NCBI GenBank assembly: GCA_015521085.1
Contig: WAOW01000005.1
Location: 62,001 to 126,000, forward strand
Length of the DNA stretch: 64,000 bases
Direction of reading: 5' to 3'
DNA from: Candidatus Thermodiscus eudorianus
GTDB lineage: Archaea > Thermoproteota > Thermoprotei_A > Sulfolobales > Acidilobaceae
The translations under genes and the position numbers were made by a program. Position 1 is the first letter of the stretch. Each line of letters begins with the position of its first letter. Under the pieces are notes generated by a model. The model made no database searches, had not been told where the DNA came from, and saw only the letters and a list, made by a program, of their open reading frames with translations. Shown in pieces: positions 15,219-37,429 of this stretch.

Positions 15219-15380
15219 ATGGCAAAGAAGAGGAAGAGGGAAGGCGGCCCCATGAGCGCCGCGGGACTAATAGCCTTCTACGATGAATACGAGGGCAAGA
15301 TAAAGATGAGCCCCACGACCCTCGTCCTGGCATCAACCATCTTCGCCGCCATAGTAGTCATCGCCCACATGATCTTCTAG
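15219..15380 (+). CDS. Preprotein translocase subunit Sec61-beta/SecG
   Basis: A 53-residue tail-anchored subunit of the archaeal Sec61/SecY channel. It has a basic start (MAKKRKREGG), a conserved loop AAGLIAFYDEY, the segment KMSPTTLV just before the membrane, and one C-terminal transmembrane helix (about 34-52). ATG 15219 is chosen over the in-frame 15195 ATG because the family starts with the basic stretch. Its last 48 nt overlap the convergent SWIM-type gene. Confidence 0.88.
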   Translation: MAKKRKREGGPMSAAGLIAFYDEYEGKIKMSPTTLVLASTIFAAIVVIAHMIF

Positions 15381-15686
15381 AGCCAACATCCTCCTAACCA
15401 TAACAGCCAGGCCCCCAGTCAACACCTCCCACACAATAGCCGCCACGTCCCCTGGACTCAGAGACCCCGAGAGGTCCCTGAAACGCCCCTCCCTCAACGC
15501 TATCCTAACCGCATAGACATGCGTGCAGCCAGCGACCCCCCTCCTACTAGTCCTCATCGTGAACCCGGGGCAACTACAGTAATGGCCGTCGACTAGCAGG
15601 TAATCCCCGTGATCGCCCAGGTACACCATCAAGGGAGGGTCCCTCCACAAGCGGACGAACCTGTTAGAGTAGGCCAGGGCCCTCAC
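15333..15686 (-). CDS. SWIM-type zinc-finger protein
   Basis: A 117-residue protein with the SWIM motif C-x-C ... C-x-H (HYCSCPGF, then AGCTHVYAVR, about 36-62), a zinc finger seen in small archaeal proteins linked to DNA metabolism and in SWI2/SNF2 and MuDR proteins. The start is GTG 15686. The frame is open for a further 26 codons upstream but has no ATG, GTG or TTG there. It lies downstream of rpiA with a gap of 52 nt and overlaps the convergent Sec61-beta gene. Confidence 0.65.
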   Translation of the reverse strand: MRALAYSNRFVRLWRDPPLMVYLGDHGDYLLVDGHYCSCPGFTMRTSRRGVAGCTHVYAVRIALREGRFRDLSGSLSPGDVAAIVWEVLTGGLAVMVRRMLALEDHVGDDYYGGEDG

Positions 15687-15738: not shown

Positions 15739-16362
15739 TCATAGGGTGTGGGGTCGCTCGAACCTTAACACCTCCCATCCACAATCGTCCCGGCCGACCA
15801 CGACGTAATCAGTATAGCCTATGAAGAGGCCCGTCTCGACCACACCCGGTATACTGCGTAGGAACCCCTCAACCTCCAGAGGGTCCCTCAGGGGACCCGT
15901 GTGGACATCCACGATGACCCCTCCCCAGTCGCTGATCACAGGACCATCCTTGCCGCCACCAGTCCGTGGAGCGGTATCGGGGAACCTCCTACGTATAGCC
16001 TCGACCACGGGGGTTAACGCGTCCCTCACGACCTCGACCGGGATCGGCCTCCTGGAGCCCAGCCTGGGGACGAGCTTCTCCCCCGTGACTATGAATATGT
16101 TCAGCCTACTCCTACTAGCCAGTATCTTCTCCCCGAGGAGCGCCGCCCCCCGGCCCTTGACCAGGTTGCCCCTCGGATCCACCTCGTCGGCTCCATCGAT
16201 ATAGACGTCTAGTACCGGGGCTACGCTGGGATGCACCGGGGCATAACCCCTATCAGCCAGCATCAACGCCGAGGCCAGGCTCGACGAGGCTACCACGGAG
16301 GGTTTTATGCCCGTAGAGGGGAGCACCTCTATCAGCTGGGCGACAGTGGACCCCGTGCCCAC
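15739..16362 (-). CDS. rpiA: Ribose-5-phosphate isomerase A (true start upstream and unclear)
   Basis: It interconverts ribose-5-phosphate and ribulose-5-phosphate. The family core is clear: GTGSTVAQ (phosphate loop), YIDGADEVDP (about 53-62), KGRGAALLGEK (about 69-79), and GGGKDGPVISD. GTG 16362 is the first usable start codon, but it removes the N-terminal helix that all RpiA proteins have. The same frame continues upstream with a good match to that helix (KRAAALGALQLVSDLGVE and then RIGV), with no ATG, GTG or TTG before the stop at 16555. A CTG at 16447-16449 sits where the family start is expected. Either a rare start codon is used or there is a local sequence error. Confidence 0.85.
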   Translation of the reverse strand: MGTGSTVAQLIEVLPSTGIKPSVVASSSLASALMLADRGYAPVHPSVAPVLDVYIDGADEVDPRGNLVKGRGAALLGEKILASRSRLNIFIVTGEKLVPRLGSRRPIPVEVVRDALTPVVEAIRRRFPDTAPRTGGGKDGPVISDWGGVIVDVHTGPLRDPLEVEGFLRSIPGVVETGLFIGYTDYVVVGRDDCGWEVLRFERPHTL

Positions 16363-16510: not shown

Positions 16511-16794
16511 CTCCAGTGGAAACGGAGGGGTCCTTTTATATCCCACGCTCCAGGCTAATGCCACCCCCTCGCCCCACCAGTTCCACTGGATCCTACTCCC
16601 CCTTGTTGCGAGGACCGGACACCACATATAAATAATTATTTTTCATATCATATATTCATTTATACTCATTATGCAAACATCATAAACAACAGCCACGAAA
16701 AGCATCGGTCAACGCAATCAATCTCAACAATTCTCCACTTGAAGGCAGGGGGTCCCCCCGCTAATACCCTCATGCTCCACTTGAAACAGGGGGG
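16511..16794. other. Probable replication origin (ORB boxes plus AT-rich core)
   Basis: Four copies of a sequence like the archaeal origin recognition box (CCAGTGGAAAC or CCACTTGAAAC followed by a run of G) surround an AT-rich stretch. The copies are at 16511-16530 (plus), 16572-16590 (minus), 16733-16752 (plus) and 16775-16794 (plus). The AT-rich core, a likely duplex-unwinding element, lies at about 16621-16692. ORB boxes are bound by Orc1/Cdc6; such a gene is encoded at 36025-37266, about 20 kb away rather than adjacent. The last box overlaps the 3' end of tiaS. The similarity to the ORB consensus is from memory; function is inferred from layout. Confidence 0.65.
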
Positions 16795-18182
16795 TTGTAA
16801 ACCAATGGTTTACAATACTCCCACCCATAGGAGAGTGGAGGAGGCTCAGCTTCCTGGCTGACAACACACTCCACAGGCATCGAGGCGGGGGTCCCTCCTC
16901 CCACGGCTGGCTCCCACCAGTTGTACTTGGTGAGATGCCTAGCCGACGAGACGGGAGGGGTGTACCGGCCTGGTGTGAGTGGTCGAGGGACCCTCACCCT
17001 GACTGGCCTGGCACGGGGATCCCTATACCCGCATCTCTCGCACCGGTACCCCTTCCCTTTCCCCATACTCTTCATGCGGGACCCGCACCTAGGACACCTA
17101 GGGGCCAGGTATACTTCCTCGCTGGCTAGCCTATAGACGACCAATACGTCGACTGCTATAGTGTTCCCCCTGCTCCTGGGCACGACCCCGCCCTCGACCC
17201 CGATGAGGTCGCCCTCCACCAGCATCCGGGCCACTTCCCGCAGAGGGCCTGTTTCCCTGTAGAAGGCTAGAGGGACCCTCCCCCACTGGGCGTCGAGCTC
17301 TACGATCACGTGGCCTCCGGGGAGCTCTCTAGGCCTCTTAGCTACTACACCCCTGAGCTTGACGTAGTTGTAGGGTCTGAGGGGGACCCTCAGGGGACCC
17401 GCCCCCGTGTGTTGGTTCGTCCTGTAGAGCACCCAGCCAGCGGGCTCCTCGCATAACAGCCTCGAAGCCTTTCCAAGGCATGTAGGCTCGGCCCCCCGGA
17501 AGCCTATGAGCACGGGGTCGGGCCCCCCGGGGGCGGCTACTAGCTTGCCAGTGACCAGGTCGTAGTTGGCATATTCGCACGGGGGCAGTTTGGCCTCGTC
17601 CATGGGATCGCCTCTCACGCATCGATCCTCTCCAAGCTTCTCTACGCGCCTGTATGCTATGAGCTCGAACGTGTAGGGGTCCCAGGGCGCCAGAGCCGCC
17701 AGCGAGAGGATGGCGCCGACGAGCCCGCTACCTCTCCTCGCTGTTATGCCTAGTCTAGCCGCTGCTTCCTCGGCCAGCTCTACAGGTATGAATTCCCTCC
17801 TACCCCTGTGGTAGAGGATTCTGAGTAGAGGGACCCTCCAGGGCTCTGTTCCCCTGTAGAGCGCGAGCCCGGGCGACTTGCCGGGGGCTTTTACAGGCAT
17901 GTAGCCGTCGATTACCCCGTTGATCATCTCGTAGAGATCCTCATAGTCTAGCCTCGTGTATCCTCTTATGACTACTGCCGCGTTGCCCCGGGTCTTCCTG
18001 GGGACCACGGGGTTGAGCCTCACGAGTAGGGGATAGTCTGCCAGTACCACGTGGTCCCGCAGCCTTGAGAGGATGATCCATGCTAGGTGCGTGGTGCACC
18101 CGCCCCAGGGGGTGTCGGAGTCGTCAATGGCTATGGTGAAGGGGTGTGGGAAAGAATCCGGGTTTGCCGTGGGAGTCGTCAA
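16770..18182 (-). CDS. tiaS: tRNA(Ile2) 2-agmatinylcytidine synthetase TiaS
   Basis: This enzyme couples agmatine to C34 of tRNA-Ile(CAU) using ATP, so that it reads AUA as isoleucine. The N-terminal kinase-like domain shows AIDDSDTPWGGCTTHLAW (about 18-35), which holds the catalytic aspartates. An OB-fold domain lies in the middle (about 275-345), and a C-terminal zinc ribbon has CPRCG and CERCG (about 368-388). 470 residues fits the upper end of the family. Agmatine could come from the arginine decarboxylase at 7224-7601. Its extreme 3' end contains an ORB-like box and a 21-nt near-perfect palindrome (16795-16815). Confidence 0.93.
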   Translation of the reverse strand: MTTPTANPDSFPHPFTIAIDDSDTPWGGCTTHLAWIILSRLRDHVVLADYPLLVRLNPVVPRKTRGNAAVVIRGYTRLDYEDLYEMINGVIDGYMPVKAPGKSPGLALYRGTEPWRVPLLRILYHRGRREFIPVELAEEAAARLGITARRGSGLVGAILSLAALAPWDPYTFELIAYRRVEKLGEDRCVRGDPMDEAKLPPCEYANYDLVTGKLVAAPGGPDPVLIGFRGAEPTCLGKASRLLCEEPAGWVLYRTNQHTGAGPLRVPLRPYNYVKLRGVVAKRPRELPGGHVIVELDAQWGRVPLAFYRETGPLREVARMLVEGDLIGVEGGVVPRSRGNTIAVDVLVVYRLASEEVYLAPRCPRCGSRMKSMGKGKGYRCERCGYRDPRARPVRVRVPRPLTPGRYTPPVSSARHLTKYNWWEPAVGGGTPASMPVECVVSQEAEPPPLSYGWEYCKPLVYNPPVSSGA

Positions 18183-35486: not shown

Positions 35487-36050
35487 CTAATCGTATATAA
35501 TCCTTGATAGGGCCGAGGAAATATAGTGCGCTAGCCGGAGTGGAATAGGCTTCCTATCCCTGCCCTGGGCCTCTACTACAATCCTCCGTGCATCCTCGAT
35601 AGAAGCCCGCCAGGCCACTATAAACAACTCGCCCAACGGGGTACAAATCCGCGTATAGTCGTCGACTAACCGAAGGATCCTCGATCTAACACTCCTTAGA
35701 GGAAGGCCGCTCGCCTCCAGACCCCTAGAGAGCCTACGATAGCTGGGCCTGTACGTATACACTACCACCACAGGGACCCGCCTAGCCCTATATAGGGTAT
35801 CAGGAGATACCACGTTGAACCCGGCGATCGTAAGGCTATCCAAGAGTATAGCGTCAGCCATCCTCCCAGGAGAGACGACCGTCACGAGGTAAGATAATAT
35901 AGCAGAAGCGTCAAGTCCATCCACGTGCACAGGTAGAAACGCCAGATCCTCTAACCCATCCTCGCTCGACCACGAGAGGCAAGTGGCAATCGTCACGCCC
36001 TCGCCAAGCTTCTTCACCACACCGTCATCGCAGGCTATCACCCTTACCAA
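35487..36050 (-). CDS. DUF99 family protein (endonuclease V-like fold)
   Basis: 187 residues of the archaeal DUF99/UPF0215 family: an N-terminal ACDDGVVK (about 6-13), the central ILLDSLTIAGFNVV (about 67-80), and VPVVVVYTYRPS (about 92-103). The fold is related to endonuclease V, and the first and central aspartates are where its metal-binding residues lie. The actual role is unknown. It overlaps the 3' end of the orc1/cdc6 gene by 26 nt, so the two are co-transcribed. Confidence 0.85.
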   Translation of the reverse strand: MVRVIACDDGVVKKLGEGVTIATCLSWSSEDGLEDLAFLPVHVDGLDASAILSYLVTVVSPGRMADAILLDSLTIAGFNVVSPDTLYRARRVPVVVVYTYRPSYRRLSRGLEASGLPLRSVRSRILRLVDDYTRICTPLGELFIVAWRASIEDARRIVVEAQGRDRKPIPLRLAHYISSALSRIIYD

Positions 36051-37266
36051 CTATCCGCTCCCTCAGCAATCCCCGGAGTTCCTCCAGGTCAAGGTCGTTC
36101 GAGAGGACGCCTATTATCGCCTGGGGATCGGCTGCTAATTCAATTATCCTAGTCTTCCCGTATCTACCCCTGCTAATGGTCCGCGTCCTCAGGATACCCA
36201 GCATATCCAACTCTGCTATAATTCCTGAGACCCTCCTAAAAGTCACCTCCTCTAACTGAGCCTCAGCCACAAGCCGTCTATACCCGTCGTAGACATCGCC
36301 GGTTGTGGCCCTCCTCCTCCCGCCTAGGGTCGCTATAGCTGCGGCAGCTAGCACTAGTTTCCCATGGAGGGGCAGGGTTTTAACAACCTCTGCAACCCTA
36401 TCCTTCTCAATTTCCATCCGGGCGGTCATTACGTGTCTCTTCGTGACGATCTTATCTCCGCTCCTCTCGGCTATCTCTCCTGCAACCCTAAGTAGGTCTA
36501 GGGCTCTCCTCGCGTCTCCATGCTCTCTTGCGGCAAGCGCTGCGCATAGTGGGATGACATCGTCGTCGAGGACGCCTGGATAGAAGGCATCCCTGCTTCT
36601 ATCTCTCAGTATATCCTCTAGTTGCTCGGCATTGTACGGTGGGAAGACTATCTCTTCCTCTCCCAGGCTACTCTTGACCCGTGGGTCTAAATTATCGATG
36701 AGTGTCGTGCTATTAGTTATCCCGATTAACGAGACCCTGGACCGGGATAGGTCCTCGTTGATCCTAGTCAGTTTATAAAGGAGGTCGTCTCCGTGTCTCC
36801 TAACCAGGAAGTCGATCTCGTCGAGGACGACTATGTAGACGCCCGGCCTTCTATTAAGCCTGTTAACCACACGCCGATAAACCTCTCCCACCGAGAGCCC
36901 TGTAAAGGGCACCCTCAGGCCTATCCCCTCGGCTATGTCAGCGATCACTCTATAGGGAGTGTCGCGGTGCCTCACGTTAACATACACGGGGATGACCCGG
37001 CTATCAGCTCTAGCGGATTTCTCCACTAGCTTCCTCAACACGAGCCTGGTAACAGCGGTCTTACCGGTCCCAGTTAGCCCGTAAATGAACACGTTGTTGG
37101 GCTTCTCCCCTCGCAGGCTAGGGGCGAGGACCATCGCTAAACGCTTGATCTCCTCGTCTCTATGAGGGAGGACGTCGGGGACGTAATCGGGCAGTAGCTT
37201 TTCCCTGTTCCTAAAGATCCTCGACTTCACCGCGGCTTCGAAGATATCGTCTATAACTCTACTCAT
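36025..37266 (-). CDS. cdc6: Orc1/Cdc6 replication initiator
   Basis: An AAA+ ATPase that binds origin recognition boxes and helps load the MCM helicase. Walker A is GLTGTGKTAV, Walker B is VVLDEIDFL, and sensor 1 is in LIGITNSTT. A C-terminal winged-helix domain (about 310-400) binds DNA. ATG 37266 (MSRVIDDIFEAAV) was preferred to ATG 37290. The ORB-like boxes at 16.5-16.8 kb are its possible targets. Crenarchaea usually have two or three such proteins; which paralogue this is cannot be decided here. Confidence 0.94.
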   Translation of the reverse strand: MSRVIDDIFEAAVKSRIFRNREKLLPDYVPDVLPHRDEEIKRLAMVLAPSLRGEKPNNVFIYGLTGTGKTAVTRLVLRKLVEKSARADSRVIPVYVNVRHRDTPYRVIADIAEGIGLRVPFTGLSVGEVYRRVVNRLNRRPGVYIVVLDEIDFLVRRHGDDLLYKLTRINEDLSRSRVSLIGITNSTTLIDNLDPRVKSSLGEEEIVFPPYNAEQLEDILRDRSRDAFYPGVLDDDVIPLCAALAAREHGDARRALDLLRVAGEIAERSGDKIVTKRHVMTARMEIEKDRVAEVVKTLPLHGKLVLAAAAIATLGGRRRATTGDVYDGYRRLVAEAQLEEVTFRRVSGIIAELDMLGILRTRTISRGRYGKTRIIELAADPQAIIGVLSNDLDLEELRGLLRERIVGKGDSLR

Positions 37267-37429
37267 CCCCTGGACCCCACGGCTCCACATGATCCATAGG
37301 AAGTAATGCCTATAGAGGGTATAATGGGGGTTAACCCGGTATTATAGTCCAGCGGGTAGCATAGCGGTAATCCAGAGACTTTAAAACCCCGGGCCGATAG
37401 ATAGGTATTCACCGGACCCTAGAGGGGTT

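Follow-up and report, generated by a model that had tools for sequence, protein, structure and literature searches.

Can a chromosomal replication origin be recognized in an archaeal genome when the gene for its presumed initiator lies elsewhere? The question is raised by a group of ORB boxes at positions 16511-16796 of the window, the 64,000-nucleotide stretch of DNA analysed here (contig C5, 62001-126000, of a 1.52 Mb genome). A literature search by title found no work on Acidilobaceae origins. A sequence-only reading had called the site a probable replication origin, a proposal supported by a unique ORB cluster, conserved box order and polarity, an AT-rich core, a ucm motif and the presence of an Orc1-1 gene. 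Since the ORB cluster is accompanied by a ucm one letter away from that of Sulfolobus oriC1, we predict that the site is an oriC1-type, Orc1-1-dependent origin of this Acidilobaceae archaeon, like that of Aeropyrum pernix, and consider this very probable. With the exception of GC skew, every feasible sequence test for an Orc1-1-type origin agreed with it.

Boxes, core and ucm motif of the site

The four ORB-like boxes described in the sequence-only reading, three on the plus strand and one on the minus strand, hold up (Table 1). Scored with a family PWM, they take ranks 1, 2, 3 and 5 among 127,958 window positions, the ranks of the window's two best boxes being partly circular because both belong to the 25 boxes on which the PWM was trained. 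Over 400 kb of contig C5, the sole further match scoring at least 10 reaches 13.5. The boxes follow the polarity +,-,+,+, with ORB1 and ORB4 near-perfect and the other two degenerate; ORB2 has the same position and polarity in relatives. By analogy with Sulfolobus, where the inner boxes are individually required (PMC12141716, available text), the weakness of ORB2 and ORB3, which score lowest of the four boxes here, would count against an origin. These two inner boxes, ORB2 in its degenerate form, are inverted over an AT-rich core that had been described as gene-free: no ORF of at least 100 aa lies across 16592-16732. Only 218 of the window's 63,929 72-mers, in 5 patches, are as AT-rich as 16621-16692.

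The core also holds a ucm, a motif reportedly described by Robinson and Bell in 2007 and absent from the features that had been listed for this DNA. When the family cores are read side by side, ATTATACAAAC stands out near the core middle. With up to two mismatches allowed, 31 of 36 family cores contain a ucm, against at most 10 of 36 shuffled cores (200 rounds), the consensus having been derived from the same cores in which it was counted; among the five cores without it, that of G027 is N-masked and that of G023 has TATATGCAAAC. The family consensus equals, letter for letter, the published 11-bp ucm in an oligonucleotide of PMC12141716 (available text). According to the same text, the motif is essential at Sulfolobus oriC1: its mutation abolished or severely reduced the activity of S. 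islandicus oriC1, and the UBP protein binds both ucm and the MCM helicase (Dhanaraju et al. 2025, PMC12141716).

The exact motif ATTATRCAAAC has two copies in the genome, of which 16668-16678 is one. The other, at C6:258596, was rejected as an origin, as it lies inside a 119-aa reading frame and has no ORBs, and a one-mismatch copy near the second orc1 gene (C10:52172) was rejected for lying inside a reading frame. Genome-wide, one-mismatch matches occur at chance level (22 in all versus 23 for the control).

Table 1. Features of the predicted origin, its neighbours and the second predicted origin (window positions unless a contig is named)
Feature	Position	Strand	Remarks
ORB1, CTCCAGTGGAAACGGAGGGGTC	16511-16532	+	strict pattern match unique in genome; PWM 34.1
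ORB2, degenerate, CCAGTGGAACT	16570-16591	-	PWM 7.5; opposes ORB3 over core
Core between inverted inner boxes, presumed duplex unwinding element	16592-16732		16621-16692 is 79% AT
ucm, ATTATGCAAAC	16668-16678	+	10 of 11 letters equal published ucm ATTATACAAAC; near core middle
ORB3, degenerate, CCACTTGAAGG	16733-16754	+	PWM 22.7
ORB4	16775-16796	+	strict pattern match unique in genome; PWM 31.6; overlaps tiaS 3' end
rpiA	15739-16362	-	Pfam PF06026; conserved beside boxes, opposite side from tiaS
tiaS	16770-18182	-	Pfam TiaS domains; frame continues 13 codons through ORB4
orc1-1 (cdc6-1), presumed initiator	36025-37290	-	Cdc6_lid and Cdc6_C; 2v1u, E 8e-153
whiP homologue	C2:15294-16040 (locus L243)		match to G016 gene
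Second-origin ucm, AATATGCAAAC	G000:C2:15189		94 nt from whiP 3' end

Conservation, neighbouring genes and the distant initiator

We then followed the cluster across the family. A looser ORB pattern matched in 39 of 48 Acidilobaceae genomes, with one cluster (at least two matches) in 38 of the 48 and two clusters in none; stray matches numbered 10 of 134, versus 15 for the reversed control. The PWM box scan took in 36 of the 39 matching genomes (leaving out G034, G071 and G026) and found all four boxes in the order +,-,+,+ in 29. In the other seven, one of the boxes is not found at the threshold used; two of these genomes have an added box beside tiaS, about 1.1 kb off, and a contradictory order occurs in none. 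Altogether, 14 genera have retained the boxes, their order and the ucm.

The cluster also tends to keep its neighbours. Tallied without G071, 32 of 38 clusters have tiaS no more than about 1.5 kb away and five lie by rpiA with tiaS out of reach (G016, G024, G032, G033 and G025; we take the first two to be A. pernix and A. camini, and genus g13 to be Aeropyrum). In the wider order, matches fall within about 1 kb of tiaS in 10 of 24 sampled genomes and by rpiA in two more, G049 and G059. Rearrangement break points were seen at the predicted origin: in G028 (L050) and G067 (L053), rpiA and a neighbour are inverted between tiaS and the boxes, while in G033 (L121) the boxes and rpiA have turned together.

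That the last box lies within the 3' end of tiaS, as had been noted from the letters, is confirmed by its place inside the tiaS ORF, and the relatives explain it. In the sister species G003 and G004, a TAA stop codon stands just ahead of ORB4, where the window reads AAA; the overlap is thus due to the loss of a stop codon, which lengthens the tiaS protein by 13 residues, the majority of them ORB4-encoded (window 16770-16810). The tiaS frame enters ORB4 in G006 and G021 too, so the overlap recurs. A literature search by title found nothing linking tiaS with archaeal replication origins. On the other side, a 117-aa frame (window 15333-15686, minus strand) without a Pfam match is conserved beside rpiA family-wide; its CxC...CxH pattern resembles what we take to be a SWIM zinc finger. 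Tried as a possible UBP, it had no PDB match and was rejected. The 400 kb hold 87 small ORFs, 45 of them basic.

The window carries an Orc1-1 orthologue whose best solved relative, 2v1u, is presumably A. pernix ORC1. The sequence-only reading had found it odd that the initiator gene was 20 kb away. The distance stands, at 19,233 bases (19.2 kb), and the oddity does not: in 20 genomes, counting that of the window, a single contig carries orc1 and the boxes, which are 3.6-616 kb apart in 18 of them, and in A. pernix neither cdc6 gene adjoins the predicted origins (PMC5333045, available text), so that a distant initiator is both usual and published. The gaps in the remaining two genomes are 59 and 61 bases, the second assuming a circular contig. 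The lack of linkage does remove one usual line of support, and we infer that the origin holds its place while the initiator gene moves.

Among known origins, the closest counterpart is A. pernix oriC1, of the same family: the ORB clusters of G016 and G024 have equal order and polarity, and A. pernix shares with our site a ucm in the core and an unlinked initiator gene (112 kb away in G016; PMC5333045, available text). Unlike here, tiaS has been displaced in G016 and the cluster is next to rpiA, ORB4 does not overlap tiaS, and the ucm is the variant ATGATACAAAA rather than ATTATGCAAAC. Sulfolobus oriC1 likewise has ORBs inverted over an AT-rich core, the same 11-bp ucm and the Orc1-1 type, but it comprises three ORBs with orc1-1 immediately adjacent (PMC12141716, available text), where we find four ORBs and the 19.2 kb gap. 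Owing to that gap, the site is classed with the A. pernix type.

A second predicted origin and paired ucm motifs

WhiP-type origins (Sulfolobus oriC3 and the second A. pernix origin) also have a ucm in common with this site, but they adjoin whiP, unlike it. G016 has two copies of its ucm variant: one belongs to the ORB cluster, and the other adjoins a winged-helix-like gene that is presumably whiP. A homologue of this gene accompanied by a ucm is present on contig C2 (Table 1), and we predict from sequence that C2:15189-16040 is a second, WhiP-type origin of this genome; no ORB scoring at least 8 was found in the 3.7 kb locus L243. A ucm scoring at least 9.7 lies 40-190 nt from the whiP match in all 28 family whiP loci examined (28 of 33 strong family matches; G005, G007, G014, G019 and G026 were left out), the distance being 78-143 nt among the 24 loci listed with one. 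By marker frequency, A. pernix has exactly two active origins, one being an Orc1-1-type oriC1 and the other of WhiP type, as far as the available text of PMC10769869 goes. These two kinds match the two predicted in this genome. As a side observation, when the whiP frame is extended, its first ~30 codons (query residues 1-31) have nine other short matches in G016 with 74-96% identity, which resembles a dispersed repeat.

We further investigated whether the ucm copies of the two origins vary together, using 23 genomes with both motifs and one genome per genus (11 genera; G027, with its core masked with N, was left out). Paired copies differ at 1.03 positions on average versus 2.15 when permuted, and the fraction of permutations that attained a value as low as 1.03 had a median of 0.0. 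Without genera g13 and g8, the values are 1.17 versus 1.78 (fraction 0.0145 at the median and 0.058 at the 90th percentile), showing that these two genera contribute much of the signal. As a control, neighbouring 11-mers were compared; they differ at 7.2 to 8.3 positions and are not clearly paired (median fractions from 0.05 to 0.68). Examples of a ucm that has changed genus-wide at both origins are ATGATACAAAA in Aeropyrum and ATTAGCCAAAM in genus g8.

We think it reasonably likely that the ucm at two unlinked origins evolves in concert, with one trans-acting reader (UBP) that would serve both kinds of origin, Orc1-1 and WhiP, in all Acidilobaceae and would have shifted its DNA specificity at least twice. 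The simplest reading is that one trans-acting protein reads both ucm sites; shared compositional drift behind the co-variation retains some residual probability. A literature search found no report of ucm co-variation between two origins. The unusual interest lies in the paired ucm, while the origin itself would belong to a known type and appears well supported.

Alternative readings and proposed mechanism

GC skew, which had been suggested as a check, did not behave as an origin would lead one to expect. Over 400 kb of contig C5, there is no extreme of cumulative skew at the site, the minimum lying about 51 kb away, and the right-minus-left skew difference at the site ranks 351 of 640. Such a missing turn, along with the two degenerate boxes and the second predicted origin, would suit a dormant or relic origin whose boxes still bind Orc1-1 while replication starts elsewhere, for example at the WhiP-type site on C2. 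However, a relic would not be expected to keep its boxes, their order and the ucm through 14 genera, and A. pernix fires both its origins (PMC10769869, available text), making this alternative unlikely.

Less probable still is that Orc1-1 binds here to regulate the tiaS or rpiA promoter and not to start replication. The boxes do flank both genes, and a regulatory role has been proposed for unlinked Orc1 proteins (PMC5333045, available text), but the two genes point the same way with the boxes at the tiaS 3' end, the cluster persists where tiaS is not its direct neighbour (Aeropyrum G016 and G024, and others), and an AT-rich core with a ucm is an origin feature. As for the boxes themselves, their core CTCCASTKGAAAC, allowing up to two mismatches, shows no enrichment in the window (6 occurrences versus 3.94 expected), so the signal is carried by the G run and the clustering. 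A chance grouping of box-like words, which this loose pattern would allow, is negligible in view of the family-wide conservation of the cluster and of the strict pattern CCASTKGAAACN{0,5}GGGG, whose only 2 matches in the 1,522,352-base genome both fall in the cluster (reversed control, 0).

Work on Sulfolobus and A. pernix suggests how the predicted oriC1-type origin may operate. Orc1-1, made 19 kb away, would act in trans, a single monomer binding each ORB with fixed polarity. The opposed Orc1-1 molecules on ORB2 and ORB3 would direct two MCM helicases onto the core, and a UBP-like protein on the ucm between the helicases would be required for their departure, after which bidirectional replication would follow. 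ORB1 and ORB4 would provide additional Orc1-1 sites, and the same ucm-binding protein may serve the second, WhiP-type origin on contig C2.

With this prediction, an origin architecture understood from experiments is extended to a lineage of uncultured archaea. Across Acidilobaceae, the site stays put while the initiator gene wanders, and the rule of looking next to orc1 therefore misses such origins; both predicted origins are found when ORBs and ucm are used together. If the ucm at the two origins does evolve in concert, nature would supply forms of an essential origin factor that differ in specificity. Co-variation of the paired ucm makes the role of the recently described ucm-binding protein testable through an exchange of natural variants.
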